41,138 nt of DNA. Origin: a virus. The notes under the pieces were generated by a model. That model had not been told where the DNA came from. It saw nothing but the letters and a program-made list of their open reading frames with translations, and ran no database searches. The stretch covers positions 1 to 41,138 of IMG/VR virus record IMGVR_UViG_3300044624_002199; one strand, given 5' to 3'. Every line of letters starts with the position of its first letter. Position 1 is the stretch's first letter. Made by a program: the position numbers and the translations under genes. Shown here piece after piece: positions 3,778-37,316 of this stretch.

Positions 3778-4094
3778 TCTCAGTAACACCCATTGCCGCC
3801 AGCAAAATTAAAAATAATCTAGACCGTAGAGGTAGCGGTATAGGCATACGTCTGGGCACAAGAACTACCGGCTGTAGTGGACTTGCTTATGTGTTAGAGT
3901 ACGTGGACACCACAGACAAACACGATGTCGTAATTGACTCTGACGGTTTTAAAATTGTAGTAGATCCCAAAAGTCTGACTATCCTAGATGACCTACTGAT
4001 AGACTATGTGCGCCAAGGACTCAACGAAGGGTTTGAGTTTACCAACCCTGCCGAAAAAGACCGTTGCGGTTGTGGGGAAAGTTTTAGGATTTGA
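3774..4094 (+). CDS. iscA: IscA-type Fe-S carrier (A-type carrier protein)
   Basis: A 106-residue HesB/IscA family protein. The three invariant cysteines are visible: Cys34 in TGCSGLAYVLEYVD, and Cys98 and Cys100 in DRCGCGESF at the C-terminus. A-type carriers take clusters from IscU and pass them to apo-proteins. The ATG overlaps the iscU stop (ATGA), so the pair is translationally coupled, and the iscA stop overlaps the next start. IscA, SufA and ErpA are hard to tell apart by sequence; the symbol follows its coupling to iscU. Confidence 0.92.
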   Translation: MISVTPIAASKIKNNLDRRGSGIGIRLGTRTTGCSGLAYVLEYVDTTDKHDVVIDSDGFKIVVDPKSLTILDDLLIDYVRQGLNEGFEFTNPAEKDRCGCGESFRI

Positions 4095-8762: not shown

Positions 8763-11081
8763 ATGCAGATTACAGTTGTAAAAAGAAGCGGTCAGCGAGA
8801 ACCACTGCATATTGAGAAGTGGCAGGCACAAGTTGCTAAAGTCTGCCAGGGAATTGCCGATGTCAGTCAATCAATGGTAGAGATCAAGGCACAATTACAT
8901 TTTTATGATGGTATTACCACCGAAGAAATTGACGGAATTACCCTCCGAGCTATTGTTGACTTAATTGACATTGAGTCAAACCCAGATGTAGGTCATACCA
9001 ACTACCAATACGTAGCAGGCAAGCAACGCTTGAGCATGTTACGTAAAAATGTTTATGGCACATACGAAGTTCCCCACCTGTACGAAATCGTAAAGAAGAA
9101 TGTGGCCACAGGTCTTTATACCGGTGAACTTCTTGAATGGTACACAGAAGATGACTGGAATCGAATGAATGACATGCTGGATCATGCCAAGGATGAAGAA
9201 TATTCATATGCGGCCATTGAGCAGTTAATTGAAAAATACCTGGTACGCAACCGTGCCACAAAGGAAATTTATGAAACTCCACAAATTAGATACATGGTTG
9301 CGGCAGCGACTGTGTTCCATAAGGAAGAACCTAACACGGCTCGTATGCGTCTTATCAAAGAATACTATAATTGTGCGAGCGATGGTCTGTTCACTCTTGC
9401 TACTCCTGTTCTGGCTGGACTTGGTACTCCTACAAAACAGTTTAGTAGTTGTGTGCTTATTCGTAGTGATGATAACTTGGATTCTATATTTGCTTCGGGA
9501 GAGATGATGGCCAAGTATGCCAGCAAGCGTGCCGGCATTGGTTTAGAAATTGGTCGTCTTCGCCCATTGGGGGCACCCATCCGTGGCGGAGAGATCATGC
9601 ACACAGGAATGATTCCATTCTTAAAGAAATGGTTTGGTGATCTGCGATCCTGTTCACAAGGAGGTATCCGCAATGCAAGTGCTACTGTATTCTATCCTAT
9701 TTGGCATCTTCAGTTTGACGATCTTATTGTTCTTAAAAACAATCAAGGAACAGAAGAAACCCGAGTCCGTTTTATGGATTATGGGGTTGTGCTTTCCGCA
9801 TTCTTCTGGAGACGATTTAAAAACAAAGAACAAATAACATTCTTTGACCCTAACGAAGTGCCTGACCTGTATGAGGCCTTTTACAAGAACACCGCTTTGT
9901 TTGAACAACTGTATGTTAAATACGAAAAGAGAAAAGACCTAAGAACTAAGACCATGGCCGCCGAAGATGTATTCAAAGGTGGTATCTTGAAAGAGCGAAC
10001 CGACACAGGGCGCATCTACTTGGTGTTTATCGACAATGTTCAAGAACAAGGCCCATTTGATCCCGAGTACCATACAATTTATCAAAGTAACTTGTGCTGT
10101 GAAATCCTATTACCAACCAAGAGTTTTAAACGCTTAGATGACGATGAAGGCCGTATTGCTCTATGCACATTGGGCAGTATCAACTGGGGAGCATTTCGCA
10201 ATCCTGAAGATATGCGCCGTGCTTGCCGTATTCTACAACGTAGTCTGTGTAATATTCTTGATTATCAAGACTTTTTAAGTATTCAAAGCCAGTTAAGTAA
10301 CCAAGAAATCCAACCTCTAGGTATTGGCATCACTAATCTTGCCTATTGGCATGCTAAACGTGGCTTACTTTATGGTGAAAAAGATGCACTCCAAGAAGTT
10401 AAAACCTGGATGGAACATCAAGCATTCTATTTGACAGAGGCCACTGTAGAGTTAGCCAAAGAACGTGGCCCTTGCACTCACTCGGGCCTGACACGCTATG
10501 GGAAAGGTGAGTTTCCTTGGGAGCGCCGAGCTAACGCAGTGAATGAATTAGCCAACTTTAAGCCTGAACTTGATTGGGAAACACTTCGAGAGAAAATGAA
10601 AACATCTGGTGTGCGTAATGCAACCTTGATGGCGGTAGCGCCTGTTGAAAGTTCCAGTGTTGTAATTAATTCAACCAACGGAATTGAAATGCCAATGAGC
10701 TTGATCACTGTTAAAGAATCTAAAGCAGGGTCGTTGATTCAAGTTGCTCCAGAATACAACAAGTTAAAGACCAAGTATCAACTCATGTGGGAACAAAAAG
10801 ATTGCGATGGTTACCTAAAGACCGCAGCTGTTATTGCAGCCTATGTGGATCAAAGTATTTCAACCAACACATTTTATAATCCCGCCCACTTTGCCGACCG
10901 CAAAGTTCCGACTACCCTGATTGCCAAGAATTTAATGTTGGCACATCGCTGGGGACTCAAGACATTTTATTACAGTTTGATTAACAAACAAGGTAGTAAA
11001 GGTCAAGACGAACCAGTAGAAGAAAAATTAGAAGTAATAGACTTTGACGATCAAGAAGATTGCGAAGCTTGCAAATTATAA
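8763..11081 (+). CDS. nrdA: Class I ribonucleotide reductase, large (alpha) subunit
   Basis: A 772-residue protein; the E. coli enzyme has 761. It reduces ribonucleotides to deoxyribonucleotides for phage DNA synthesis. An N-terminal ATP-cone begins [18 protein letters not shown]. Active-site cysteines: Cys230 in KQFSSCVLI, the radical Cys445 with Glu447 in [11 protein letters not shown], and Cys468 in IALCTLGS. The radical-transfer pair Tyr736-Tyr737 lies in KTFYYSL. The C-terminal redox pair Cys767/Cys770 (DCEACKL) is reduced by thioredoxin or glutaredoxin; a glutaredoxin gene lies downstream. iscS separates it from nrdB, which is unusual. Confidence 0.97.
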
Positions 11082-11088
11082 TATAATA

Positions 11089-12309
11089 ATGATAGATTAC
11101 GCAAAATTTCCAGTATATTTAGATTACAGTTCAACTACACCTATGGATCCACTAGTAGTAGATGCTATGATTCCATTCATGCGTGAGCAGTTTGGAAATC
11201 CTGCATCACGCAGTCATGCCTATGGCTGGAGTGCCGAAGAGGCTGTTGAAAATGCCAGAAACGAAGTGGCTAAATTGGTCGGTGCTGATCCAAGAGAAAT
11301 TGTTTGGACAAGTGGCGCCACCGAAAGCAATAACTTGGCCATTAAAGGTGCTGCTCATTTCTATAAGGAAAAAGGCAAGCACATCATCACAGTAAAAACC
11401 GAGCACAAGGCGGTGTTGGATGCTTGCCGTGAGCTCGAGCGTGAAGGGTTTGAAGTAACTTACCTGGATGTATTGTCTGATGGGCTAATTGATTTTGAAG
11501 TATTTCAATCGACTGTGCGCCCGGATACTATTTTAGTTTCGGTGATGTTTGTAAATAATGAGATTGGTGTTATTCAAGACATTCCTCGCATTGGTGAATT
11601 CTGTCGTAAACGTGGTGTGATTCTTCATGTAGATGCCGCACAAGCAACCGGTAAGGTAGAGATTGACCTACAAACACTTAAGGTAGATTTAATGAGCTTT
11701 TGTGCTCATAAGACTTATGGTCCAAAAGGCATTGGCGCATTATTTGTGCGGCGTAAGCCCCGTATTCGGATTGAGGCTCAGATTCATGGTGGTGGTCATG
11801 AGCGCGGTATGCGCTCTGGAACACTAGCCGTCCATCAAATTGTTGGCATGGGCGAATCATTTAGGCTGGCCAAAGTACACATGCAAATAGAAACTGCACG
11901 TATAGGTATGTTGCGTGACAGATTGTTGTCAGGTCTGCAAGAAATTGAGCAGGTGTACGTCAATGGTGACATGGATCAACGTGTTCCTCACAACCTCAAC
12001 ATCAGTTTTAACTATGTCGAAGGCGAAAGCATGATCATGGCCTTAAAACAACTGGCAGTGAGTTCAGGATCTGCTTGTACATCCGCCAGCCTTGAACCCA
12101 GTTATGTGCTGCGAGCTCTGGGTCGCAATGACGAACTAGCACACAGCAGTATACGCTTTACTCTGGGACGATACACCACTGAATTGGAAATAGACTTTGC
12201 CATTGAATTGATTCAACGCAAGATTGCTGGCCTAAGAGAACTAAGTCCACTTTGGGAAATGTACAAAGACGGCATTGACCTGGACACTATACAGTGGGCC
12301 AGCCATTGA
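11089..12309 (+). CDS. iscS: IscS, cysteine desulfurase
   Basis: A 406-residue protein from ATG 11089, near the 404 of E. coli IscS; its start ([15 protein letters not shown]) aligns well. It is a PLP enzyme that takes sulfur from cysteine and hands it to IscU or other acceptors. Visible residues: His106 in KTEHKAV, the PLP lysine Lys208 in [14 protein letters not shown], and the persulfide Cys330 in [21 protein letters not shown] on a long mobile loop of the IscS type. It is full length with no missing catalytic residue. It lies 7 bases after nrdA and before nrdB, with no clear ribosome site of its own. Confidence 0.96.
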
Positions 12310-20825: not shown

Positions 20826-21030
20826 AGTTGCCGGCCTGTGCGGATGTGGTCGTAGCCCCACTGGCAAATGTCTTGGCTGGCATGCTCTTAGTGAAGACCT
20901 GTATCAGCATCAAAAAATGTTGTGGCTTGAAGAAGAAGAACGCAAAGATAATGACCTGGCTGAATATCAAAAACAGGCACAAGATCTTTGGTTTGCAGAT
21001 GGTTCGTGCACCGGCGGCAAACCGGAATAA
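20809..21030 (+). CDS. Small CDGSH-like Cys3His protein
   Basis: A 73-residue protein from ATG 20809 (or 20812), with AGGA at 20795-20798. Residues about 11-25 read CGCGRSPTGKCLGWH, close to the CDGSH iron-sulfur motif (CxCxxS...C-x-G-x-H) but one residue shorter between Ser and the third Cys. The rest is a charged helix (WLEEEERKDNDLAEYQKQ). If the motif is functional, it would hold a redox-active, transferable [2Fe-2S] cluster, a natural client for the phage IscU/IscA/IscS. A zinc site is the alternative. Confidence 0.7.
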   Translation: MMPNSKVAGLCGCGRSPTGKCLGWHALSEDLYQHQKMLWLEEEERKDNDLAEYQKQAQDLWFADGSCTGGKPE

Positions 21031-21046
21031 TTTAAGGAGAAATAAA

Positions 21047-21715
21047 ATGGAAGCAGTTTATCGAGGCGCCACAGAAGTAAATAGTGCCATGTTACGGGTG
21101 TATAATAACATGTCCTTGGCTGTGATTACTAGCATGGTAGTAAGTTATTTGGTATCGACCAGTCCTGCACTCATGCAGTTCTTTTTTACAGGTGTCATGA
21201 AATGGATTGTGATATTTGCTCCGCTGGCCATGATTTTTGCCATGTCTTGGGCCATGACCAAAGCAACTAAACTCCAGGCCCAGACCATGTTGCAATTGTT
21301 TGCCGCCCTAATGGGACTGAGTATGAGTTCAATCTTTGTAGTGTACACTGGCACCAGTATCATTGGTGCATTTTTTGGCGCAGCTATTCTGTTTATTACC
21401 ATGAGTGTCTACGGATATTTTACCAAGACCAGTCTGGATAGCATGGGTAAGTTTATGATTGTGGGGCTTATTGCTATTATCCTTGCCAGTATTGTTAATA
21501 TCTTTATTGGTAGTACTGTGATGCAGATGGTTATCTCGGCATTGGCCATTATAATTTTTTTAGGATTAACAGCCTACGACACCCAAAAAATCCGTGAAAT
21601 GGTTAGTCAGGACAGTACCGGAGTAGCCGAGGTATCGGGGGCATTAAACCTGTACATGGATTTTATCAATTTGTTTATCAATCTATTACAATTATTTGGC
21701 GGGCGTAAAGAATAG
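21047..21715 (+). CDS. Bax inhibitor-1 family membrane protein (YccA/YbhL-like)
   Basis: A 222-residue protein from ATG 21047 after AAGGAG (21034-21039); a longer in-frame opening from 20828 only shadows the previous gene. It has about seven hydrophobic segments, and the family signature GLTAYDTQKIREMV lies near residue 185. Bacterial members (YccA, YbhL) sit in the inner membrane. YccA restrains FtsH, and other members act as pH-sensitive calcium leaks. In a phage it could shield its proteins from FtsH or delay membrane-damage responses; this is inference. Confidence 0.88.
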   Translation: MEAVYRGATEVNSAMLRVYNNMSLAVITSMVVSYLVSTSPALMQFFFTGVMKWIVIFAPLAMIFAMSWAMTKATKLQAQTMLQLFAALMGLSMSSIFVVYTGTSIIGAFFGAAILFITMSVYGYFTKTSLDSMGKFMIVGLIAIILASIVNIFIGSTVMQMVISALAIIIFLGLTAYDTQKIREMVSQDSTGVAEVSGALNLYMDFINLFINLLQLFGGRKE

Positions 21716-23512: not shown

Positions 23513-24718
23513 ATGACAGACACCTTAAGTCACTGTAGTTTTTGTAATAAACACAAAGATACAGTTGGTAAAATAATTGTCAGTCACACCGTGGCCATTT
23601 GTAATGAGTGTGTGGATCTTTGCAATAATCTGCTTAAAGATACTAAAAAATCTGGCAAGAAAGACCCAACAAAAAAATCAATCCCAGATCCTAGGGACAT
23701 TCGTGATTACTTAAATCAATATGTTGTAGGGCAGGACACAGCTAAAATTGTATTGGCCGTGGCCATAACCAATCATTACAAACGAATCAATAACTTAGAT
23801 ACTGCCACAGAAATATCCAAAGGCAATATCCTGATGATCGGGCCAACCGGTACCGGTAAAACACTTATGGCCCGCTCAGTTGCTCGCTATCTTGATGTGC
23901 CATTTGTTGTTGCTGATGCCACTACCTTGACCGAAGCGGGCTATGTGGGTGACGATGTTGAAAGTCTTATTGCTCGTTTGTATACTGCAGCCAATAATGA
24001 TGTAGACCGCTGTCAACGTGGCATTATTTTTCTAGATGAAATTGATAAAATCAGTCGTAAGAGCGAAAGTGCCACTGTGAGCAAAGATGTAAGTGGCGAG
24101 GGAGTACAACAGGCCCTGCTAAAGTTAGTAGAAGGAACCAAGTGCAAAATTATACCGCAAGGAAGTCGAAAACAGGCCACCAGCGACGGCATTGAAATTG
24201 ATACTACTAATATTTTATTCATTGCCGGCGGCGCATTTGTTGGTTTAGAAAATATTGTAAAAACTCGGCTTCAGGGCACCAGCATGGGGTTTAATGCCAA
24301 GTTGACCGATCCAGTAGAGGTTGATTTAGCAGAAGTTAGTCCTGATGATTTGGTTCGATACGGGTTAATACCAGAGTTTGTTGGCCGGTTTAGTAGTTAT
24401 GTTAGTTTACATAATTTAACAAAACCGCAGTTGATTAGTATTTTAACCGAAGTTCAACACAACTTTGTTGGTCAATACAAGTGGTTATTTGATCAAGATG
24501 GAGTTGAATTGTTATTTGATGCAGAAAGCCTGGACATTATAGCAGAACGTACCCTTAATACTCGAACCGGTGCCAGAGGGTTACATAGTGAACTAGAGCG
24601 GGTATTGCTATGTCATATGTTTGACTTACCACGTTACCGAAAAGCTGACATTTTACAAGTGACAATCAATAAAACCCAGGTAAATACGCCTATGACACTA
24701 TTGCAAGAAAATTTATGA
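23513..24718 (+). CDS. clpX: ClpX, AAA+ unfoldase
   Basis: A 401-residue full-length ClpX (E. coli 424). It has an N-terminal zinc-binding domain with Cys8, 11, 30 and 33. Walker A is GPTGTGKT (110-117), pore loop GYVG (143-146) and Walker B IIFLDEID (Asp175, Glu176). The ClpP-docking IGF loop appears as MGF (258-260) and the sensor-2 region as TGARGLHSE. Retaining the IGF-type loop suggests that it can dock on host ClpP and redirect degradation. It is coupled to bS21 downstream by ATGA. It probably degrades or remodels host proteins. Confidence 0.95.
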
Positions 24719-24939
24719 AGCAATTCTACGGAAATTCGGTACTAATCACTGACGGCAATGTAGAAAAAGCTCTTAGAAAATTCAAGAAAAAAGTGCAAGA
24801 ATCCGGCCTGTTAGAAGATTTACGAGCTAGAGAAACATACGAAAAACCAACAACAGAACGTAAACGCAAAAAAGGTGCCGCAAAAGCACGTTGGCGTAAA
24901 CAGTTACGCAGTCAGCAACTTCCTAAAAAACAGTATTGA
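24715..24939 (+). CDS. rpsU: Ribosomal protein bS21 homologue
   Basis: A 74-residue protein with the full S21 pattern: [20 protein letters not shown], the [17 protein letters not shown] block, and a basic C-terminus. bS21 lies on the 30S platform near the anti-Shine-Dalgarno region. Phage copies are known from aquatic phages and may replace the host protein to favour phage messages. It is coupled to clpX (ATGA), a pairing of two host-takeover functions. Confidence 0.93.
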
Positions 24940-24940
24940 T

Positions 24941-25183
24941 GTGTATATCAGATTTGATGTTCGTTACAACAACGAACTGGAAGATATCAAAAGAGAAGTA
25001 AAGAGTTGGGCAGAAAGGTATGGCGTCCGCTATACTTACAAAACAATAAAATATCACCATAGAGTTGGATTTGACCAAGCCGAGCATTTTAGTTTGTTTG
25101 TTATGACTTGGAATCCGGCTGATCTAGAATTGCGCCCTTGGTTACAATATCAAGTTATTGATGTAGCCAACGAACGATACTAA
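24941..25183 (+). CDS. Small hypothetical protein
   Basis: An 80-residue protein. The start is uncertain. GTG 24941, 1 base after the bS21 stop, gives MYIRFDVRYNNELEDIKREV. An in-frame ATG at 24875 lies inside the bS21 gene and seems less likely. No clear ribosome site is seen, so coupling to bS21 is probable. The fold appears alpha/beta with an aromatic, basic middle (YGVRYTYKTIKYHHRVGF). The function is unknown. Confidence 0.6.
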   Translation: MYIRFDVRYNNELEDIKREVKSWAERYGVRYTYKTIKYHHRVGFDQAEHFSLFVMTWNPADLELRPWLQYQVIDVANERY

Positions 25184-25220
25184 ATAATACTGTGGATGCC
25201 GATGGTCGGGTCCACAGTAT
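25181..25220 (+). promoter_or_regulatory. TAAATA element with 5'-UTR hairpin before hsp20
   Basis: TAAATA (25181-25186, in ACTAAATA) is followed directly by a perfect 10-bp inverted repeat (25187-25196 with 25211-25220) enclosing a small inner CCGA/TCGG stem. There is no T-run, so it is not a terminator. A transcript starting after TAAATA would carry part or all of it in its leader. AAGGAG then leads to the hsp20 start. Confidence 0.5.
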
Positions 25221-25247
25221 GTCACTTGCTTAACAAAGGAGAAAACA

Positions 25248-25691
25248 ATGACAAAAATCACAACTCTGGACCTTAGTCCATTCTATCGCAATTCCATTGG
25301 TATTGACCGTTTATTTGATCGCATCACAAATCAAATTGACACGGCTAACAGCAATACCAACTATCCACCATACAACATCTTAAAAACAGGCGAGAACACC
25401 TACGAAATCCAAGTAGCGGTTGCCGGCTTTACTCAAGGTGAAGTAGAAGTGAATGTCAATGAGGGTCAACTAATTATCACTGGCGAAAAGCCTGTAACAG
25501 AATTACCCGAGGGTCATACTTACGAACACCACGGCATCAGTGCCCGTCGTTTTGTTCGTTCTTTTACTCTTGACAATTATGTTGAAGTTATTAGTGCATT
25601 ATCTCAAGATGGCATTTTAACTATCAAGTTAGAACGTCGACTTCCTGACGCAATGAAACCAAAGACTATTGCGATTACTTACGCAAACTAG
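25248..25691 (+). CDS. Hsp20 small heat-shock chaperone
   Basis: A 147-residue alpha-crystallin family protein. The N-terminal arm contains the SIGIDRLFDRI motif. The crystallin domain runs from YPPYNILKTGENTYEIQVAV to about residue 133, with QDGILTIKLER near its end. The C-terminal KTIAI serves as the I-x-I-type anchor. It holds unfolding proteins in the cytoplasm, and phage copies are thought to aid capsid folding or scaffolding. The start is supported by AAAGGAG 8 bases upstream. It is flanked on both sides by intergenic hairpins. Confidence 0.93.
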   Translation: MTKITTLDLSPFYRNSIGIDRLFDRITNQIDTANSNTNYPPYNILKTGENTYEIQVAVAGFTQGEVEVNVNEGQLIITGEKPVTELPEGHTYEHHGISARRFVRSFTLDNYVEVISALSQDGILTIKLERRLPDAMKPKTIAITYAN

Positions 25692-25733
25692 TATAATATA
25701 GTAAATACAGTGGAGGGCAGGGTGCCCTCCACT
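25669..25733 (+). promoter_or_regulatory. Promoter elements and hairpin before clpS
   Basis: TTGCGA (25669-25674), 17 bases, TATAAT (25692-25697) could be a sigma70-like promoter. TAAATA (25702-25707) overlaps its expected start. A perfect 10-bp hairpin follows (25709-25718 with 25724-25733, GC-rich, 5-nt loop). No T-run follows, so I read it as a leader hairpin, though it could weakly terminate hsp20 transcripts. Confidence 0.5.
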
Positions 25734-25750
25734 ATTTCAAAGGACCATAA

Positions 25751-26059
25751 ATGTCACAATCTGATGCTATCGCAAAAATAAAAACTGTTGAAGGTATCAA
25801 AGAGCCTCCTATGTTTAAAATCATTTATTTGAATGACAGTCAAACCAGCATGGAGTTTGTGATTGAAACTTTAATTGATTTTTTTAATTATACCACGCAA
25901 ACAGCAGTAAAAATTATGGAAGATATTCATTCTCAAGGGGCTGCGGTAGTGGCTGTACTGCCTTACGAGATTGCTGAGCAAAAAGGAATTGAAGTTACCT
26001 TATGTGCTCGCAGTAATAATTTCCCATTGCAAATTAAACTAGAGCCTGAAACGGCCTAA
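25751..26059 (+). CDS. clpS: ClpS, N-degron adaptor protein
   Basis: A 102-residue protein with the ClpS core: PPMFKIIYLNDSQTSMEFVIETL, then MEDIHSQGAAVVAV and ending PLQIKLEPE. The N-degron pocket residues are largely kept (Asn28, Asp29, Met34, His60), with Ser30 where E. coli has Asp36. ClpS normally delivers N-degron substrates to ClpA. No ClpA is present here, but a phage ClpX lies 1 kb upstream. It may retune the host ClpAP or block it. Its 3' end overlaps the minus-strand phosphoesterase by 4 bases. Confidence 0.9.
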   Translation: MSQSDAIAKIKTVEGIKEPPMFKIIYLNDSQTSMEFVIETLIDFFNYTTQTAVKIMEDIHSQGAAVVAVLPYEIAEQKGIEVTLCARSNNFPLQIKLEPETA

Positions 26060-27254: not shown

Positions 27255-27289
27255 TACTCTCGCTAAATACTATTTCAAGAGCGAGAGTA
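27255..27289 (+). promoter_or_regulatory. Hairpin covering csgF start, with TAAATA in its loop
   Basis: A perfect 9-bp stem, TACTCTCGC (27255-27263) with GCGAGAGTA (27281-27289). The right arm holds the purine-rich ribosome site and the A of the csgF start codon. The 17-nt loop begins with TAAATA (27264-27269). Read-through RNA would hide the start. RNA begun about 6 bases after TAAATA would lack the left arm and be free. T4 uses this design at genes e and soc. Confidence 0.65.
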
Positions 27290-27750
27290 TGAAAATAATA
27301 ACATTAACTTTGCTAGGGTTATTTGCAATGTCGGTTTTTGCAACACCATTGCCAGATTATACATTTAAGAGTCCAGCGTTTAACGGATTGGGCTACAGTA
27401 GTCACGTGTTGACCATTGAGAATCAAGAAACTACTCGTAAAGCACAATTACAAAAAGATATTCAAGCAGGACTGGACAAGCTCAAAGCTGACCAGTCAAA
27501 CACAAATATTGCCAAGTTTATGAACAACTTAGAATCACGCATCTACGCACAGATCAGTCAAAACTTAGCCACAGCCATGTTTGCCAATGGTGGAACTAAT
27601 AACTACGGCACACTCGACTTTGAAGGCAACACAATCTTCTGGAGTAAGGATGGCCAAATGGTCAACCTACAAGTAACTGACAGTGTAGGTAATCAAACCT
27701 CCGTCAGTATTCCGTTAGGACAATTTCAATTTCCCACAGGAACACCATAA
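27289..27750 (+). CDS. csgF: CsgF-like curli secretion accessory protein
   Basis: A 153-residue protein with a signal peptide (about residues 1-18, ending SVFA). The mature start has YTFKSPAFNG, matching the CsgF N-terminal segment that plugs into the CsgG channel (F.NP.FGG in E. coli). Later blocks, FMNNLESRIYAQISQNL and then NTIFWSKDGQMVNLQVTD, fit the CsgF helix and C-terminal beta sheet. In bacteria CsgF forms the second constriction of the secretion pore and nucleates amyloid. Its stop overlaps the csgG start (TAATG). Confidence 0.88.
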   Translation: MKIITLTLLGLFAMSVFATPLPDYTFKSPAFNGLGYSSHVLTIENQETTRKAQLQKDIQAGLDKLKADQSNTNIAKFMNNLESRIYAQISQNLATAMFANGGTNNYGTLDFEGNTIFWSKDGQMVNLQVTDSVGNQTSVSIPLGQFQFPTGTP

Positions 27751-28700
27751 TGGAATGGCTAATCGCAATAGCAGTGCTTGTTTGGTATTTTAATGGCGCA
27801 GTTCCTACCAAGGTTCGTGAGCAAATGGGCGCCGAACAAAAGTATAAACCACAGGTAGCAGACAATGTTTTACAACGAGAGTTCGATACTATACCTCCAC
27901 CAGCAGGTAATAAAATTAGTGTTGCGGTATACCAGTTTACAGACAAAACAGGTCAAAAACGTCAACAACCCAATGTGGCCAATTTCAGTACAGCAGTTAC
28001 CCAGGGTGCCGAGGTATTCTTAATTAAAGCTCTACAAGATGTTGGACATGGACAGTGGTTTGATGTAGTAGAACGCACTAACATTGATGCACTCACAAAA
28101 GAACGCTTGATCATCCGCCAAATGCGCGAAGCCTATGAAGGCAAAAATGCTAAACCTTTAATGCCCATGCAGTTTGCCGGCATCATCATGGAAGGTGGTA
28201 TCATTGGGTATGATTCAGGAACAGAATCAGGCGGTGCCGCATATCGTTGGTTGGGCATTGGTCCCAGTACAATGTATTCAAAAGATACTGTAACTATCAG
28301 CTTGCGAGCAGTTAGTGTCAATACAGGCAAAGTGTTAGCAGCTGTTACTGTAACTAAAATTGTCTATAGCACCGCAGACAGCGTAGCTGTGTTAAAATTT
28401 CTGAACAACAACACACAGGCATTTGAAGCAGAAACTGGCCTGACAATTAATGAGCCTGGCACACTTGCTGTTAAAGCCACAATAGAAGCTGCGGTGGTCG
28501 AATTGATCAAAGAAGGCGAGCGCAAGGGTGTATGGGACTATCGTACACCAATGGTTCAGATTCCATCTGATGCTCGTCCAGTGGCACCGGCGGCATTGCC
28601 GGTGATCAAAAATGACCCTGTTCCTACTCCGGTAGTGCCTAGCACTCCAGAAGTGGCCGAACAAATAGGCTACGAAGCCGCACCGGCAGGCCAAAGATAA
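27750..28700 (+). CDS. csgG: CsgG-like curli secretion channel, without lipobox
   Basis: A 316-residue protein. From residue about 50 it follows E. coli CsgG closely: ISVAVYQFTDKTGQ, NFSTAVTQGAEVFLIKAL, FDVVERTNIDALTKERLIIR, IMEGGIIGYDSGTESGGA and KGVWDY near the end. CsgG forms a nonameric channel in the outer membrane and is normally a lipoprotein. Here the N-terminus (MEWLIAIAVLVWYFNGAVPT) has a membrane segment but no cysteine; Ala stands where the lipobox Cys would be. An inner-membrane anchor or altered targeting is possible. A Pro-rich C-terminal tail is extra. Confidence 0.92.
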   Translation: MEWLIAIAVLVWYFNGAVPTKVREQMGAEQKYKPQVADNVLQREFDTIPPPAGNKISVAVYQFTDKTGQKRQQPNVANFSTAVTQGAEVFLIKALQDVGHGQWFDVVERTNIDALTKERLIIRQMREAYEGKNAKPLMPMQFAGIIMEGGIIGYDSGTESGGAAYRWLGIGPSTMYSKDTVTISLRAVSVNTGKVLAAVTVTKIVYSTADSVAVLKFLNNNTQAFEAETGLTINEPGTLAVKATIEAAVVELIKEGERKGVWDYRTPMVQIPSDARPVAPAALPVIKNDPVPTPVVPSTPEVAEQIGYEAAPAGQR

Positions 28701-28731
28701 AGCACTTACTTTACGACCGGCTTTTTTCCTG

Positions 28732-28758
28732 TAAATATATAGTGGACAAAGATCCACT
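28732..28758 (+). promoter_or_regulatory. TAAATA element and hairpin before curlin-like gene 1
   Basis: TAAATA (28732-28737) is followed 3 bases later by a perfect 6-bp hairpin AGTGGA/TCCACT (28741-28746, 28753-28758, loop 6). The expected start lies within the hairpin's left arm. GGAG-rich sequence then leads to the ATG at 28796. The curlins may thus be transcribed separately from csgFG. Confidence 0.5.
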
Positions 28759-28795
28759 TTAATAATAAGGCCAAAGAGCCAAAGGAGCAGGAGCT

Positions 28796-29611
28796 ATGAA
28801 AAAAATAGCAAAAGCCATTGCCGCGATTACTCTCGCATTCAGCATGGCATTCGCAGGGGCAGCAGACAATAGTATCTACATTGATCAGGCTGGCGACAAT
28901 ACACAGGTATCGATCACTCAAGACGGTGCAGGAAATACCGTTCGTGGTATTCAAGGTGCAGGCACAAGCAACACTACCCCAGCTAAGATCTACGGAGACG
29001 GCAACCAAGTTACTGTAAATCAAATCGGTACAGGTAACACATTAAACTTTGGTATTGTTACCACAGTGGCCGCAGGTGTTAACAATGGCAATGTCTATAG
29101 TTATACTGTAACTGGTAATAATAGTACAGCAACAATTAACAGTAACAGTAACGGTCAAGGAATAAGTGCTAGTAACCGGGTAGCAGTTAATCAAACCGGA
29201 AACAATTCTAATACTGATATTAGTATGTTAGGTTCTGCTAATCAAATTACTGCAACTACATCCGGCGGCACTTACAATAGTTTTGTTAGTAAGATCAACG
29301 GTGATAATAATACTCAAACAGTTACCATGTCTGGAGGTGGCAGTAATACAGCCACCCTTACACAAGGTGATGATGCTGCTAGTACAACCAACAACAAAGG
29401 CACAATTGGTATACTCAGCGTTGGTGCAAGCAACACATTTAATGTTTCACAAACTGGCGGTGGTACTAATGGACACAGTGCCGCATTAGATTTTAACGGG
29501 TCTGGCAACACAGTTGGAATTACGCAACAAGGCACCAGTGCAGACAGCATTGTAAACCTTAAAAGTGTAGGGAACACAAACACATTTACTATCAACAGTA
29601 ATACGCACTGA
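28796..29611 (+). CDS. Curlin-like (CsgA-type) amyloid repeat protein 1
   Basis: A 271-residue protein with a signal peptide (about residues 1-22, ending FAGA). The mature part is rich in Asn, Gln, Gly, Thr and Ser with curlin-style repeats: QVSITQDGAGNTV, QVTVNQIGTGNTL, RVAVNQTGNNSN, TFNVSQTGGGTN and TVGITQQGTS. The Q.G..N spacing is the hallmark of CsgA/CsgB repeats that stack as amyloid. It lies 95 bases after csgG and is the likely secretion substrate. It begins NSIYIDQAGDNTQ, nearly the same as the second curlin at 30753. Confidence 0.85.
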   Translation: MKKIAKAIAAITLAFSMAFAGAADNSIYIDQAGDNTQVSITQDGAGNTVRGIQGAGTSNTTPAKIYGDGNQVTVNQIGTGNTLNFGIVTTVAAGVNNGNVYSYTVTGNNSTATINSNSNGQGISASNRVAVNQTGNNSNTDISMLGSANQITATTSGGTYNSFVSKINGDNNTQTVTMSGGGSNTATLTQGDDAASTTNNKGTIGILSVGASNTFNVSQTGGGTNGHSAALDFNGSGNTVGITQQGTSADSIVNLKSVGNTNTFTINSNTH

Positions 29612-29631
29612 GTATTTGTATAGGGGGATTG

Positions 29632-30753
29632 ATGAAAATATGCAAGCTAATCATATTCGCACTCTTGCTGAGTATATCTCCGATAAGCAAAGCCGCTATC
29701 GGGACAATTACCGAGCAACAAGCAGCAGTTCCTTCGATACAACGATCGAAGACTACTCTACAGGGGACCAAGGGGACCGGAGTGGAGATGCAGGACGAGA
29801 TCAAAACAGCAGCGGGCAAAGTTGGGATTAGATTTGCCGACGATACTCAGGTAAAAGTAAATGAAAATTCAAGATTGGTCATTGACGACTTTGTCTACGA
29901 CCCTAAAAATAAAGACGCAGGTAAGCTGGCTCTCAACATGGCTTCGGGCACAGCTCGGTATGCCAGCGGCGCGATTGCTAAAAATAATCCTAGCAAAGTA
30001 GCCATTAATACTCCTACTGCTACGATTGCTGTTCGTGGCACAGACTTTAGTGCTACTGTGGATGAACTGGGACAAAGCACAATTATTCTATTACCTAGTT
30101 GTCCTGAGGGATACAAGAATGTTGAACGTGACTGTAAAGTTGGAGTAATTGATGTGTATAACGATGCTGGGTCGGTTACCTTAGATCAAGCGTTTCAAGC
30201 CACTCGAGTTACTAGTCGTAGTACAGCACCCGTTAAGCCGGTTACAGTTGATTTAACAGAAGATTCTATCAGTAATATTTTGATTTTAAGTCCTCCAGTA
30301 CAATTGATACGAGGGGATGATCAATCAAAAACTCGATCCGGTGGATTCAATGCTCTTGATGCGGATTTCCTTAAAGAAAATCAGTTGGTTAACCAGCTAG
30401 ACAAAGAGCAAAAGGAAATGTATCAAGACAAGTTAAGTCGTAATCCACTTGAAGCCAACTTATTACCCAACTTGTTAGACATCATTAATGAACAAATAGG
30501 TGCTGCAAATAGAAACTTGTTGGTAGTATCACAGGCCACCTCGCTACTTCCTGACTATAAGGCCAGTACCGGCGTTGTTGCCGAAGTCGATACACTTGCT
30601 GTGGAACTATCTAGAGATGATGGCAGTAACAAACAAAGTGTGCGAGTAGATCGTACTCGTAGCCTGACCATTTATCAAATACAAGGCAGTGTTGAAGTTA
30701 AAAATCGTGTTAACAATACCGGCACTACTACTATTACCTTGAAACAGAACTAA
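29632..30753 (+). CDS. Periplasmic FecR-domain protein
   Basis: A 373-residue protein from ATG 29632 after AGGGGG. A signal peptide covers about residues 1-21 (LIIFALLLSISPISKA). Residues about 40-170 form a FecR domain: GVEMQDEIKTAAGKVGIRFAD, TQVKVNENSRLVIDDFVYDP, INTPTATIAVRGTDFSATVD. The rest is helical and polar. FecR domains are periplasmic sensors or ligand-binding modules, and in several bacteria they are encoded next to CHASE2-cyclase genes, as here. It could monitor curlin export and signal to the cyclase; that is inference. Its stop overlaps the next start (TAATG). Confidence 0.82.
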   Translation: MKICKLIIFALLLSISPISKAAIGTITEQQAAVPSIQRSKTTLQGTKGTGVEMQDEIKTAAGKVGIRFADDTQVKVNENSRLVIDDFVYDPKNKDAGKLALNMASGTARYASGAIAKNNPSKVAINTPTATIAVRGTDFSATVDELGQSTIILLPSCPEGYKNVERDCKVGVIDVYNDAGSVTLDQAFQATRVTSRSTAPVKPVTVDLTEDSISNILILSPPVQLIRGDDQSKTRSGGFNALDADFLKENQLVNQLDKEQKEMYQDKLSRNPLEANLLPNLLDIINEQIGAANRNLLVVSQATSLLPDYKASTGVVAEVDTLAVELSRDDGSNKQSVRVDRTRSLTIYQIQGSVEVKNRVNNTGTTTITLKQN

Positions 30754-31313
30754 TGAAAATCCTTGCCATTCTTTTTCTTGTTGCCTGTTCCTGTGTTTCT
30801 GCACAAAACAATTACATCTACATTGACCAGGTGGGCAATAACAATCAAATCACTGTCACTCAGGATGGCACAGGTCACTTGGCCGCCGTGGCCATTGGTG
30901 CTACCTTGCCTACCAACACCAATGATCTAAAGACTGGGTATGGTATTGGTACAACTCCGTATACTGGAGTGGGCACAAGCGAATACAACAGTGTAACAAT
31001 TAATCAGCAAGGGGTTGCAAGCCACACAACCACTATTGAATTACCTCGAGCCAGTAGTAATCTAATCACTGTTGATCAAAGTGGTGCTAGTAATCATACC
31101 TTCAGCATTAGCTCTACAGCTAATACTAACAATGTCAATAACACCATATCGGCCACACAGTCAGGTACAGGAGAAAAATCTTTTGCCTTGACCTTGGATG
31201 GAACCAACGGAGCCTTGGTTACAGTTCAACAGACCAATCCTACACAGGCCAACACCGGGGCCATGACCATTCAATGCACCACCTGTGGCAGTTACAGTTA
31301 TATACGCAATTAA
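30753..31313 (+). CDS. Curlin-like (CsgA/CsgB-type) repeat protein 2
   Basis: A 186-residue protein with a signal peptide (about 1-17, ending CVSA). The mature start NNYIYIDQVGNNNQITVTQD repeats the motif of curlin 1. Further Q.G repeats follow (SVTINQQGVASHT, LITVDQSGASNHT, TISATQSGTGEKS), and the C-terminus has CTTCGSYSY. It may nucleate or cap fibres made by curlin 1, as CsgB does for CsgA. That comparison rests on its smaller size and its pairing with curlin 1. It is coupled to the FecR gene. Confidence 0.82.
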   Translation: MKILAILFLVACSCVSAQNNYIYIDQVGNNNQITVTQDGTGHLAAVAIGATLPTNTNDLKTGYGIGTTPYTGVGTSEYNSVTINQQGVASHTTTIELPRASSNLITVDQSGASNHTFSISSTANTNNVNNTISATQSGTGEKSFALTLDGTNGALVTVQQTNPTQANTGAMTIQCTTCGSYSYIRN

Positions 31314-31325
31314 CTTTTTTCAATC

Positions 31326-31348
31326 TGCCTGTAAATAAAATGCAGGCA
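31326..31348 (+). promoter_or_regulatory. Hairpin with TAAATA loop after curlin-like gene 2
   Basis: A 6-bp stem TGCCTG (31326-31331) with CAGGCA (31343-31348) encloses an 11-nt loop that starts with TAAATA, as at csgF. No ribosome site is covered here. It may be a late promoter for the cyclase or an RNA processing site. Confidence 0.4.
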
Positions 31349-31388
31349 TAATAATAACAACAAGCCAGCTACGCAATATTTTTAACTG

Positions 31389-31413
31389 CCCACTTAATTG
31401 TGGGTATTTTTTT
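31389..31413 (+). terminator. Intrinsic terminator between curlin locus and cyclase
   Basis: CCCAC (31389-31393), 6-nt loop, GTGGG (31400-31404), then TATTTTTTT to 31413. It separates the curlin genes from the cyclase 13 bases downstream and so implies separate expression or partial read-through. Confidence 0.75.
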
Positions 31414-31416
31414 CCT

Positions 31417-31422
31417 TAAATA
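31417..31422 (+). promoter_or_regulatory. TAAATA element immediately before cyclase start
   Basis: TAAATA lies just after the terminator and 4 bases before the cyclase ATG (31427). With T4-like spacing, transcription would start at about the ATG, giving a leaderless message. No ribosome site is visible, which agrees with this reading. Confidence 0.35.
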
Positions 31423-31426
31423 TACT

Positions 31427-33475
31427 ATGTTCAAAAAAATATTAACTAGTCCCTGGACAGCACTAATTACTTTAGCACTCATTGTCGGCCTGCGTATGGC
31501 AGACCCTATGTTTGTAGAGAGTATTCGTCTAAGATACTTTGATACACTGGTTACAAGTAAAGCACCAGAAGTCATAGGCGTTCATGTTGTAAACATTGAT
31601 GAGAAAGCATTAGAAAAATATGGCCAATATCCTTTTCCCCGTAATATCTACAGTACCATTATTGCTGACTTATATCGGCGTAATGCTGGCCTTGTTGTTT
31701 TTAATATCCTTACTCCTGATCCTGATCGTATGGGTCGCGATATGGACTATGCACAAGCACTCCGCCGATACCCCGTTATCCTTCCATCTGTTGGAGCTCA
31801 ACAAACCCGAAACCAACCCCGCCAGCCAGGCTCGGTGGTCATTGGACCACACGCTAACCAAATTGTAGAATACCCTGGTATCATTGCCAATGTGCCCGCG
31901 GTAGAGAATGCCGCGGCAGGTGTAGGTATTATAAACACATTTCCTGAAGTTGACGGGGTAGTTCGTCGTATGCCGTTGTTGGTTGCCAGCGGCAGCAAAC
32001 TATATCCAAGTCTTGCTATGGAAACACTGCGTGTGGCCGCTGGCGACACCACATTTCAAGTTAAACTAAACGAGAATGGCGTTGAGAAAATGCGTATTCC
32101 TAAGTTTGGACCGGTTGCCACAGACAGCCTAAGTCGTATATGGATTGATTGGTCAATGACACCAGAGGTTCACGGCCTGACTGATTTACCCAAAGACTTT
32201 GATGGCGAGATAGTGATTGTTGGCGTAAGTGCCCAAGGACTCGCAAACCCTGTAGCTACAAGCCAGGGCGAGATGTTGCCACAAGAATTACAAGCGGCTG
32301 TGTTAGGCACAGTGATTGCCAATAGAGATCGTCCTGTAATCACTCGTCCAGATTGGGCCGACGGTGCAGAGGTTATTGCCATTGTTGTAATTGGATTTGT
32401 ATTATTATTTTTAACAAGGTGGACTTATGTCGGGATTATTAGTAGTATTGTTGTTGTCGGTAGTATTATTCCTCTTTGCGGAATTGCTTATAGCCGCTAT
32501 TCTTGGCTCGTGGATGCAAGTTTGCCTGTTGCTGGTCTTGTTCTGGTCCTGCTTCACGCTTATGGCGTTAAGTTTGTAAGTGAATTCTTACAGAAACAAG
32601 CTATCAAGAAACAATTTTCTGGCTATGCGTCACCAACTGTGGTTGAAATGCTTCAGAAGAATCCAGATCTAATCAAAAAAGGCACCAAACGTGAAGTGTC
32701 AATCTGCTTCTCCGATTTACGCGGATTTACCCCACTAGGCGAAAGTTTTGGTGACGACGTGGGTGGACTTACTCAAGTTATGAATGGATACATGGATGCC
32801 ATTACACAGCCTATCTTAGAAGCCAACGGTATGGTTATCAAATACATCGGTGATGCGTCGATGCACATACACAATGCTCCTATAGATGATCCAGACCACG
32901 CCAAGACAGCGGTGGCAGTAGGACTTCAAATGGTTCGTGCTGTTAAAGAGTTTAGTAAGAAACTTGAAGCCGAAGGTCGTCCTGGAGTTAAAATGGGTGC
33001 TGGTATCAACACAGGACTTGGCTATATTGGTGAAATGGGCAGCACACAGCGCCACAGTTATGATGTATTAGGCGATGCTGTAAGTACCACAGCTCGTATT
33101 GAAAGCAAATGTAAAGAATACGGTTGCGTATTGTTAGTTGGCGAAGAAACTGTTCGACGTTGCGGTGATGCATTCTTCTTCTTAAAGATTGATGACCTAG
33201 CTGTTAAAGGTAAAAGTGTAGGTGTTGGCATCTATACGGTGCTAGACGATGTTACGCCCGAATATGTAATGGCTGGAAAAACACATGATAAAATGCACCA
33301 GTTATACAGACTTCAAAAGTTTGATGCAACTATTATATTGTGCGATGAACTTAAATTAGAGTTTGATGGCAAGATGACCGGCTACTACGACATGTGGATT
33401 GATCGTTGCAAATTCCAAAAAACTCAAGACTTGCCTGAAGATTGGAACGGTGTGTTTATTGCTACCAGTAAGTAA
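31427..33475 (+). CDS. CHASE2-domain class III adenylate/guanylate cyclase
   Basis: A 682-residue membrane signalling protein. A first membrane segment (about 9-25) is followed by a periplasmic CHASE2 domain (about 26-300; NIDEKALEKYGQYPFPR, VFNILTPDPDRMGRD, GVINTFPEVDG-like strands). A three-helix membrane block comes next (about 308-385). The class III cyclase domain (about 420-600) has metal Asp in CFSDLRGFT, a second in IKYIGDASM, and DVLGDAVSTTAR. The transition-state Asn is replaced by Ser; the Arg remains. The Asp in YDVLGD favours ATP. The true start is ATG 31427. Confidence 0.92.
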   Translation: MFKKILTSPWTALITLALIVGLRMADPMFVESIRLRYFDTLVTSKAPEVIGVHVVNIDEKALEKYGQYPFPRNIYSTIIADLYRRNAGLVVFNILTPDPDRMGRDMDYAQALRRYPVILPSVGAQQTRNQPRQPGSVVIGPHANQIVEYPGIIANVPAVENAAAGVGIINTFPEVDGVVRRMPLLVASGSKLYPSLAMETLRVAAGDTTFQVKLNENGVEKMRIPKFGPVATDSLSRIWIDWSMTPEVHGLTDLPKDFDGEIVIVGVSAQGLANPVATSQGEMLPQELQAAVLGTVIANRDRPVITRPDWADGAEVIAIVVIGFVLLFLTRWTYVGIISSIVVVGSIIPLCGIAYSRYSWLVDASLPVAGLVLVLLHAYGVKFVSEFLQKQAIKKQFSGYASPTVVEMLQKNPDLIKKGTKREVSICFSDLRGFTPLGESFGDDVGGLTQVMNGYMDAITQPILEANGMVIKYIGDASMHIHNAPIDDPDHAKTAVAVGLQMVRAVKEFSKKLEAEGRPGVKMGAGINTGLGYIGEMGSTQRHSYDVLGDAVSTTARIESKCKEYGCVLLVGEETVRRCGDAFFFLKIDDLAVKGKSVGVGIYTVLDDVTPEYVMAGKTHDKMHQLYRLQKFDATIILCDELKLEFDGKMTGYYDMWIDRCKFQKTQDLPEDWNGVFIATSK

Positions 33476-33889
33476 TTACTCGATCGGTAGTTTGATACTA
33501 AAAGCAACAACGTTACTGCCATCTTTACTGACTTTAGGCAAAGCCCCAACACAAAGATAATTCCAGCATACGTCGGGTACAACCATTGGCATAACTAGCA
33601 TGGATTTGTATCCAGTTACCGCACCGCCTATTAGACCTATGTTCCAGTCATCATCTTTATAGAATGTATATCTTGCACCGGCGTACCATGAATAATTATA
33701 TTCGCTGTTACGATATGCGCCGCCAGTCCAAGACCAGTTTTTGTTGTGTTCAAACTCAAATCCTACACCTGCATTAATGGGGTTGTTTCCGGGGGTGTCG
33801 TGCCAACTAAGTCCGGTAAAACGCACATAGTTTTCAGCCAAACAAGTAAGTGAAAATGTAGTAAGTAGAATTAAAGCAAGAACTCGCAT
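33476..33889 (-). CDS. Probable small outer-membrane beta-barrel protein
   Basis: A 137-residue minus-strand protein with a signal peptide (about 1-18, ending TCLA). The mature part alternates aromatic and Gly residues in strand pattern (NAGVGFEFEHNKNWSWTGG, SWYAGARYTFYKDDDWNIG, LIGGAVTGYKSM) and ends in a strand, AFSIKLPIE, like small outer-membrane barrels. Similar phage-encoded proteins exist, from memory. It may change phage adsorption or outer-membrane lipids; not shown. It meets the cyclase gene end to end with no gap. Confidence 0.7.
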   Translation of the reverse strand: MRVLALILLTTFSLTCLAENYVRFTGLSWHDTPGNNPINAGVGFEFEHNKNWSWTGGAYRNSEYNYSWYAGARYTFYKDDDWNIGLIGGAVTGYKSMLVMPMVVPDVCWNYLCVGALPKVSKDGSNVVAFSIKLPIE

Positions 33890-33900
33890 TCCTTTACTTA

Positions 33901-34230
33901 TTAAGGATTTTCTGAGCTGGCTTCTTTATCTTCGGTGGTTTTTTTAGTTATTTGCTTGTTGATTTCTGCCTCGGCTTCGACACGCTCGTATTCAATGGTT
34001 TTACCACGCAGGTGTAGCACAGTATTGACCTTTTGATTCAAGCGGATGAGATCATTATCCAACATGCGGATACGATCAATAAGAGCAATAAGAACAGTAT
34101 TGGCGTCATTGATAACTGGTTTAACTTCTGTAGTTGCCCAAAACCACACCATTTTGATGATGTAGCCCATGCCCACTGCCATAACGATTGGAAATCCATA
34201 TTTGTTTATTAAGTTAACTACTTCACCCAT
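33901..34230 (-). CDS. Small membrane protein, paralogue of the 34414-34695 protein
   Basis: A 109-residue protein: MGEVVNLINKYGFPIVMAVG, one membrane segment (about residues 12-33), then a helical LIALIDRIRMLDNDLIRLNQ stretch and a charged tail (EAEINKQITKKTTED). The same plan, including MGE...GFPI and the DNRV/DRIR helix, is seen in the protein two genes upstream, so these are tandem paralogues. Relatives are common in marine T4-like phages. A holin-like or membrane-scaffold role is inference. Confidence 0.72.
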   Translation of the reverse strand: MGEVVNLINKYGFPIVMAVGMGYIIKMVWFWATTEVKPVINDANTVLIALIDRIRMLDNDLIRLNQKVNTVLHLRGKTIEYERVEAEAEINKQITKKTTEDKEASSENP

Positions 34231-34414
34231 GTTTTGTTGCCCCGTCCGATAAAAACTTTTCTAAAGGATCCATTTTAACTAGAATCATATGACCGTTGCG
34301 ATAGGTTAGTTTAAAGTAGTCACCTTCGTGCCATCCTAGCTTAACAGGGTCAAGTTCGGCATCCATCATGATCCTGCTCTCAGACAAATTCCACTCATAT
34401 CCGTAGTAGTTCAT
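34223..34414 (-). CDS. 63-residue conserved phage hypothetical protein
   Basis: A small soluble protein between the two membrane paralogues, overlapping the following one by 8 bases and its upstream neighbour by 1. It contains ELDPVKLGWHEGDYFKLTYR and then GHMILVKMDPLEKFL, a compact beta-rich domain. I recall relatives in many marine myoviruses in the same neighbourhood. The function is unknown; the overlap implies coupled translation with both membrane proteins. Confidence 0.75.
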   Translation of the reverse strand: MNYYGYEWNLSESRIMMDAELDPVKLGWHEGDYFKLTYRNGHMILVKMDPLEKFLSDGATKHG

Positions 34415-34695
34415 TAGTCTCTCCTGGCATCAGATTTGCCGTCTGCACGACTAATACGCTCTACATCTGGACGAAGGCCTAGGGCGTTGCTCACAACTGT
34501 GTCAATGCGAATCACGTCGTGATTCATTGTTTTAACACGATTGTCCAGGGCTGTGATAATTCCTGCCATACCTTTAATAGACGATAGAACGCCAGCCAAA
34601 AGTAATTTGATTGTTAGATATACGAAGTATCCGCCGGCCAACGCTGCAGCAATTGGAAAGCCAAGATCTCCGATGAGTTTGAATATTTCACCCAT
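34414..34695 (-). CDS. Small membrane protein, first gene of minus-strand operon
   Basis: A 93-residue protein starting MGEIFKLIGDLGFPIAAALA, with a membrane segment (about 12-36), an amphipathic ITALDNRVKTMNHDVIRIDT helix and a basic/acidic tail. AAGGAGCAC precedes the ATG on the minus strand, and a TAAATA/hairpin element lies 30-40 bases upstream. It is a paralogue of the protein at 33901-34230. One membrane helix plus an amphipathic helix would suit a class III-type holin or a membrane tether; not established. Confidence 0.75.
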   Translation of the reverse strand: MGEIFKLIGDLGFPIAAALAGGYFVYLTIKLLLAGVLSSIKGMAGIITALDNRVKTMNHDVIRIDTVVSNALGLRPDVERISRADGKSDARRD

Positions 34696-36068: not shown

Positions 36069-37316
36069 ATGTTAAAAATAGGTTTTATTGGACTAGGCAA
36101 ACTAGGACTAGACTGTGCTGAAGTATTTGCCGAACACTACGAAGTACGCGGCTCAGATATTTACCCAAGAACTAGTGACCTAGTAAAAGTTTGCGACTTT
36201 CAAGAATGTATACAAAAAAGCGACTGGATCTTCATTGCAGTACCAACCCCACATGCCGATGGATATGATGGAGCAACACCTAGTAGTCATTTAGAGCCCA
36301 AGGACTTTGGACGTGATGCTGTAATTGATGCAATTACCAAAGTTAACCACTACGCCATAACTAGTAAAAAGGTAGTACTAATTAGCACAGTATTGCCTGG
36401 CACAACACGTCACTACTTTGAGCCAGCACTTAATGATATGCACCAGTTTCTTTACAATCCTTATCTAATTGCTATGGGTAGTGTAAAGTGGGACATGGTT
36501 CATCCTGAAATGATTATGATTGGTACTGAGGATGGAAATCCAACGGCTTTGGCGCAAGAGTTAATTGATATCTACCGGCCAATAATGTTGAATAATCCAC
36601 GTTATGAAATTGGCACCTGGGACGAATGCGAAGCAATCAAAATTTTCTACAACACATTTATTTCGGCCAAAGTTGGTCTAGTAAACATGATCCAAGATTT
36701 TGCAATGAAGATCGGTAATATCAATGTAGATGTTGTTACAGATGCACTTGCTCGTAGCACACAGCGTATTATGGGTCCTAAGTATATGACAGCAGGCATG
36801 GGCGATGCAGGTGCTTGTCATCCTAGAGATAACATTGCTCTGCGTTGGTTAGCCGAAGAATATGAAGTAGGCTATGACATGTTTAATACTATTATGCAGG
36901 CCCGTGAAGTGCAAGCTCGTAACCTGGCAGACTTCTTGTGTATTCAAGCGCAAAAACACAACTTGCCTATTGTTATTCATGGTAAAGCCTACAAACCGGA
37001 CGTACCTTATTGTATCGGTAGCTACAGTACATTAATTGGTCACTATGTTGAAGCATACGGACATCATATATTGTATGTTGATCCACTAGCCGACAATATT
37101 GAGAATGTAATTTCTACTGTGGACACGCCGGCTGTGGTGCTAATGGCCCACAATAGACATGTGACATATGGTTACACCGGAGAAGAACGTAAAGATTCAT
37201 TTTATTATGACATCAAACCAGGCAGCGTAATTGTCGATCCGTGGCGTACAATTCCATTGGACACAAAAGACATGAAGGTAATACATTATGGCAACACACG
37301 CAATCGTCAAGTATAA
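36069..37316 (+). CDS. UDP-glucose/GDP-mannose dehydrogenase family protein
   Basis: A 415-residue NAD-dependent nucleotide-sugar dehydrogenase. The Rossmann motif GFIGLGKLGLDCAEVF starts at residue 5, then FIAVPTPH, the STVLPGTT loop, EAIKIFYNTFISAKVGLVNM (catalytic Lys/Asn helix) and the catalytic Cys in MGDAGACHPRDNIAL. The C-terminal domain has HGKAYKPDVPY. It would oxidise a UDP- or GDP-sugar to its uronic acid. The GAC-HP variant and a short N-terminal region separate it from typical Ugd, so the sugar is uncertain. Glycosyltransferase and 2OG oxygenase genes flank it. Confidence 0.88.
   Translation: MLKIGFIGLGKLGLDCAEVFAEHYEVRGSDIYPRTSDLVKVCDFQECIQKSDWIFIAVPTPHADGYDGATPSSHLEPKDFGRDAVIDAITKVNHYAITSKKVVLISTVLPGTTRHYFEPALNDMHQFLYNPYLIAMGSVKWDMVHPEMIMIGTEDGNPTALAQELIDIYRPIMLNNPRYEIGTWDECEAIKIFYNTFISAKVGLVNMIQDFAMKIGNINVDVVTDALARSTQRIMGPKYMTAGMGDAGACHPRDNIALRWLAEEYEVGYDMFNTIMQAREVQARNLADFLCIQAQKHNLPIVIHGKAYKPDVPYCIGSYSTLIGHYVEAYGHHILYVDPLADNIENVISTVDTPAVVLMAHNRHVTYGYTGEERKDSFYYDIKPGSVIVDPWRTIPLDTKDMKVIHYGNTRNRQV

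Follow-up and report, generated by a model that had tools for sequence, protein, structure and literature searches.

Why do marine phages carry curli genes when their hosts lack them? This question is raised by a locus in IMG/VR virus record IMGVR_UViG_3300044624_002199, a viral contig (G000 in our collection) of which the whole stretch of 41,138 nucleotides (nt; positions 1 to 41,138), hereafter the window, was analyzed. Six open reading frames (ORFs), coding for CsgF, CsgG, a curlin, a FecR-domain protein, a second curlin and a CHASE2-class III cyclase, lie there on the plus strand between positions 27289 and 33475; ORF analysis and Pfam searches bore out the identities, place and strand given to them in an initial annotation. 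Two further genes of the module, on the minus strand at 33901-34230 and 34414-34695, had been overlooked; they code for small membrane proteins that we call SmA and SmB. The gene content would fit a phage-made surface-amyloid system of at least eight genes with FecR as its anchor, a reading that we hold to be evenly balanced between right and wrong.

Export Pore and Curlin-Like Subunits

CsgF (27289-27750; 153 amino acids (aa), with a signal peptide; Pfam CsgF 3.6e-14) and CsgG (27750-28700; 316 aa; Pfam 7.5e-47, PDB CsgG 3e-61) overlap by 1 nt, as do FecR and the second curlin, and the reading frames of all module genes are intact. Conserved residues of both pore proteins were retained in alignments with their Escherichia coli counterparts, and the same alignments indicated that the N-terminal pore-binding segment of CsgF (YTFKSPAF vs. 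FQFRNPNF in E. coli) and the F56-type constriction residue of CsgG (ANFSTAV) were kept. The window CsgG presents an additional Pro-rich tail. In this protein, known in the literature as an outer-membrane lipoprotein channel, the lipobox Cys was replaced by Ala17 (codon 27798-27800; N-terminus MEWLIAIAVLVWYFNGAVPTKV). The Cys occurred in 136 of 137 distinct complete CsgG N-termini, the window being the sole exception, and the Ala was also found in a second assembly. CsgG that is not lipidated is not known to insert. The pore of the window phage would be either altered or decaying.

Both curlin-like proteins displayed a signal peptide and curlin repeats. The second (30753-31313; 186 aa) matched Pfam Curlin_rpt above the cut-off (2.3e-8), whereas the first (28796-29611; 271 aa) fell just short of it (19.4 bits vs. 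a cut-off of 20.7); the family profile of the latter matched the solved curlins 8c50 (4.9e-11) and CsgA 8enq (5.4e-5). The structure prediction advised in the initial annotation was run for curlin 1 and gave a confident, beta-rich model (predicted local distance difference test score (pLDDT) of 80, predicted template modeling score of 0.79). The gene identities are supported, as is the idea, put forward in the same annotation, that the phage may direct the export of amyloid. A Pfam scan that covered the six genes with their neighbors revealed no CsgE, CsgC, or CsgD, and Rfam gave no match.

The FecR-Domain Protein

The FecR-domain protein (29632-30753, plus strand; Pfam FecR 3.9e-11), which probably starts at ATG 29632, is composed of a signal peptide, a FecR fold at about residues 24-205, a low-confidence linker and a curlin-like C-terminal end (Q351, Q372). 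Residues 217-373 were modeled without confidence, as expected of a disordered linker. Q372 was invariant in 29 sequences and lies 21 residues after Q351; the terminal Q of these proteins usually follows the preceding conserved Q by 20-23 residues, like a curlin repeat. A terminal IxIxQ strand was present in 49 of 49 curli-linked FecR proteins as compared to 9 of 80 other FecR proteins and 196 of 3813 background ORFs. A second, separately collected curli-linked set ended in this way in 58 of 73 cases under the strict definition and in 71 of 73 when a short tail was allowed, the remainder having been judged by inspection (the strand, then a few extra residues). Scores of at least 5 bits on the curlin-repeat profile were reached by half of the curli-linked tails (34 of 68) vs. 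1 of 80 others.

FecR co-varied with CsgF and CsgG (rho 0.83-0.88 among the three in 27 modules, and 0.54-0.65 in 78 modules) and thus belongs with the pore. A ligand-based pairing of FecR with CHASE2 was considered and found to be unsupported by co-variation (rho 0.17-0.21).

The initial annotation had treated this protein as a sensor, a role that is not supported. The periplasmic fold of FecR anti-sigma regulators is present, whereas an inner-membrane segment and an anti-sigma part are absent, the sole membrane-type segment being the N-terminal, signal peptide-like one; neither a sigma factor nor a TonB receptor appeared among the neighbors in Pfam scans. A PDB sequence search with FecR gave nothing convincing. 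The fold search returned PupR/FecR-type domains and also the "cell surface anchoring domain" 5ix9 (TMt 0.72, 1.1 Å, 62 columns), which we take to derive from an adhesin of Marinomonas primoryensis. Such a cell surface anchoring domain is described in PMC13090378. Together with the curlin-like terminus, this suggests that FecR anchors, plugs or nucleates the fiber rather than sensing iron.

The SmA/SmB Pair

SmA (33901-34230, minus strand; 109 aa; phrog_18771, 9e-28) and SmB (34414-34695, minus strand; 93 aa; phrog_18771, 3.7e-31) are paralogues, each predicted to form a coiled coil and having a single hydrophobic segment at the N-terminus, and SmB carries a conserved C-terminal DAR[RK]D motif. 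The pair was found in 60 of 87 curli loci, no more than 900 nt upstream of CsgF in 45, and exactly one SmA-type and one SmB-type gene occurred in all 62 loci scored. Among 50,697 phage records, SmA and SmB were confined to six, those with a curli module. In the reverse test, SmA and SmB served as the only queries against viral contigs, and loci of at least 19 kb were scored within about 10 kb; of the 90 loci obtained, the cyclase was present in 90, FecR in 80, and CsgG in 73, none being devoid of all three. Judged by this distribution, SmA and SmB are obligate partners and part of the curli module.

The published module includes a "histidine kinase" upstream of CsgF, which was not observed in the window. 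Pfam scans detected no kinase domain in SmA, SmB or their neighbors, and therefore the published "histidine kinase" is probably the SmA/SmB pair, as position, number, and size suggest. Both genes are annotated as hypothetical in Methylophilales phage Melnitz and Pelagibacter phage HTVC008M. A PDB sequence search with the pair gave nothing convincing, and SmB was not found in 289 alphaproteobacterial genomes, an empty answer obtained without a positive control.

The CHASE2 Cyclase

The cyclase (31427-33475, plus strand; 682 aa from its ATG) matched Pfam CHASE2 (6.4e-37) and Guanylate_cyc (1.8e-17). ATG 31427 should be taken as its start, since the alternative GTG (31400) falls inside a terminator-like hairpin with T7 (31387-31406, plus strand) between curlin 2 and the cyclase; this hairpin is a consensus match only, and the count of such matches equaled the chance expectation. 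The sensor half was 77% identical to that of locus L217 and the catalytic half 89% identical to that of L335, as compared to 60 and 61% for the reverse comparisons with the other halves of these two. By these identities, the window cyclase is a swap of sensor and catalytic domains with a break near residue 375-390. CHASE2 and the catalytic domain hardly co-varied across modules (rho 0.10-0.11). The two metal-binding Asp residues, the Lys/Asp pair that sets specificity and the Arg were kept in the window enzyme (D, K, D, D, R), and the transition-state Asn was replaced by Ser. Two catalytic types filled the same CHASE2-cyclase slot in a later set, the Ser type in 41 modules and the Asn type in 66.

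Distribution and Exchange of the Module

The six-gene set itself is not new. The order CsgF-CsgG-curlin-FecR-curlin-cyclase is annotated in Melnitz, is present in HTVC008M and was kept across viral contigs; the full set, including substrates, FecR, and cyclase, had been published as a viral type VIII secretion module by Wittmers et al. 2022 (PMC9599517), which the initial annotation did not take into account. The window presents these traits of that module: CsgF, CsgG, curlin-repeat proteins, and FecR in conserved order with the cyclase downstream. The roles suggested for it in the initial annotation, namely a block to superinfection, aggregation, and a lysis pore, had also been proposed before (PMC9599517, PMC7029224, PMC9004378). 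Zaragoza-Solas et al. 2020 (PMC7029224) proposed sibling capture and reported the operon to be absent from their freshwater SAR11 myophages. What is new are the SmA/SmB partners, the occurrence in giant phages, the curlin-like FecR tail, the cyclase domain swap, and a CsgG without the lipobox Cys.

The module was also found, each time with exactly two Sm genes, on contigs of 245-383 kb that have a major capsid gene of the T4 type; a literature search on giant phages with curli returned none in its top results, which is weak evidence of absence. Curli modules inside the viral clades also occurred on contigs of metagenome-assembled genomes (MAGs) assigned to Rhodobacteraceae, Flavobacteriaceae, and Pirellulales (G003, comprising L085 and L086; L084; L088), with four CsgF copies in G003; in these cases, phage contigs have probably been binned with bacterial sequences. 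The match to CsgG in OR851715.1, a "Salmonella phage" record of 1,499 bases, looks like a host csgG in a tiny record.

The search for the six-gene order across phage and bacterial genomes, as called for in the initial annotation, succeeded in phages and viral contigs, and its bacterial yield was two Caulobacteraceae MAGs (L087, L089), in which CsgF-CsgG-curlin-curlin-FecR-cyclase stood among differing bacterial flanks. No FecR or cyclase was found at 16 other alphaproteobacterial curli loci examined, most of them from Caulobacteraceae. The Caulobacteraceae MAG CsgG grouped with the viral set with full support, and FecR was sister to viral L258/L263/L275 (support 100/100). A bacterial donor of the whole module was considered; the approximately unbiased test did not reject a single viral clade (p 0.122) and thus did not decide the direction of transfer.

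Proposed Function and Alternatives

In the surface-amyloid system favored here, curlins would leave the infected cell through CsgG-CsgF and polymerize on its surface. The folded domain of FecR would stay periplasmic, and the disordered linker and the curlin-like tail that follow it would reach or thread the pore; FecR would thus anchor, nucleate or plug the fiber and take the place of a CsgE gate and a CsgB anchor, both missing here, in an arrangement resembling retention-domain adhesins. SmA/SmB and the cyclase would form a second, separately exchanged inner-membrane block that reports the state of the envelope as cyclic AMP (cAMP), and a change in cyclic nucleotides in the infected cell is plausible in view of the catalytic residues of the cyclase. 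The likely benefit would be an amyloid coat that limits superinfection or keeps host cells and progeny together. A more elaborate version would depict an eight-gene viral amyloid organelle in which FecR is a self-anchoring plug and nucleator threading CsgG, SmA/SmB and the CHASE2 cyclase constitute a new inner-membrane sensor coupling fiber assembly to cAMP, and the whole is exchanged as two cassettes among phages of ordinary and giant size, some bacteria sharing it as well; we offer it tentatively, as rather doubtful in its entirety.

Several observations weigh against a surface amyloid. The window CsgG lacks the Cys of an outer-membrane lipoprotein, and the Asn-to-Ser change in the cyclase may lower its activity. 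The window FecR tail scored only 2.7 bits on the curlin-repeat profile and was modeled at pLDDT < 50, and the tails of the two Caulobacteraceae FecR proteins were without the 21-23 spacing. A Foldseek search with the curlin model gave no significant match, and no clumping occurred in Melnitz-infected cultures (PMC9004378).

The best of the alternatives, although unlikely, is a lysis device, a role proposed for the Melnitz genes by Buchholz et al. 2022 (PMC9004378). CsgG-CsgF would act late in infection as a gated pore or pinholin depolarizing the cell, with SmA/SmB as a holin/antiholin-like pair and CsgG held in the inner membrane by the missing lipobox. The unlipidated window CsgG would agree with this, as would the membrane-bound nature of SmA and SmB, their constant position beside the module and a weak match of the SmA N-terminus to a holin family (phrog_4898, 9e-5). 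However, the device leaves unexplained two conserved curlins and a curlin-tailed FecR in dozens of modules, the outer-membrane lipobox is kept in every CsgG of the 137 but that of the window, and all other phages in the collection need holins yet do without SmA/SmB. Distinctly unlikely is decay of the module in the window phage, whereby lipobox loss would have left a non-functional pore: the sole Cys-less CsgG is read identically in both assemblies, but all frames are intact and the conserved residues of CsgG and CsgF are retained.

We consider it quite improbable that FecR is a true iron-responsive regulator of an uptake or biofilm system, as published by Wittmers et al. 2022. The Pfam assignment and the fold match to PupR are in line with that proposal, whereas the protein is devoid of both an anti-sigma segment and an inner-membrane anchor, has neither a sigma factor nor a TonB receptor beside it, ends in a curlin-like tail, and shows co-variation with CsgF/CsgG rather than with the cyclase. 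The uptake pore for large nutrients of Zaragoza-Solas et al. 2020, which may stand open for want of CsgE, leaves curlins, CsgF, and FecR unexplained and is highly improbable.

These results bring the published labels "histidine kinase" and "iron regulator" into question. SmA/SmB, a fiber-like FecR and T4-like phages of 245-383 kb make up a definite list of parts whose roles can be tested; if a fiber forms, a lytic virus would build an organelle on its host.

Genomic Context

Phage genes flank the module, among them those for ribonucleotide reductase, ligase and virion-type proteins, and a second contig agreed with the window at 99.994% over 15.4 kb. Mis-assembly and host DNA were ruled out by this match and the phage context, which disposes of the concern, voiced in the initial annotation, that the locus might be bacterial DNA joined to the contig by error. 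A small outer-membrane-barrel-like protein (33476-33889, minus strand; phage PagP-like family phrog_3600, 2.3e-18) adjoins the module, and its gene was excluded from it because it has no relatives in other curli loci. Elsewhere in the window, ClpX, HSP20, and ClpS cluster as a phage protease-adaptor/chaperone block (23513-26059, plus strand; relatives at 65-68% in L013 and L015), and Fe-S assembly genes (NifU/IscU-like, IscA-like, and a probable cysteine desulfurase) occur at 3391-4094 and 11044-12309. A Bax1-I (TMBIM) family membrane protein (20828-21715, plus strand; Pfam 2.8e-52) and a gene of the UDP-glucose dehydrogenase family (36069-37316, plus strand) were also found.

Comparison with Known Systems

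The pelagiphage type VIII secretion module, including that of HTVC008M, matches the window in its six genes and their order and is likewise without CsgE, CsgC, and CsgD. In contrast with it, the window CsgG and FecR belong to a different viral clade, its CsgG is predicted not to be lipidated, and SmA/SmB lie downstream on the opposite strand; compared to HTVC008M, the catalytic half of the cyclase is of another type. Melnitz shares the gene order, with a cyclase 49% identical to that of the window and a CsgG that has a lipobox, unlike the window protein; the Melnitz paper (PMC9004378) reports csgF and csgG only, whereas two curlin repeat proteins and a FecR also feature in the annotation of the deposited record. 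The Caulobacteraceae cluster differs from the window in its two tandem curlins and in being devoid of SmA/SmB.

Retention-domain adhesins (LapA type; M. primoryensis) likewise combine a small periplasmic beta domain, a disordered stretch and a surface part. FecR is not a member of that group, and the proposed likeness consists of the 62-column fold match and of what we infer from it. With the E. coli csgBAC-csgDEFG system the window has CsgG, CsgF, and curlins in common; it is without CsgE, CsgC, CsgD, and the CsgG lipobox, and adds FecR, the cyclase, and SmA/SmB.

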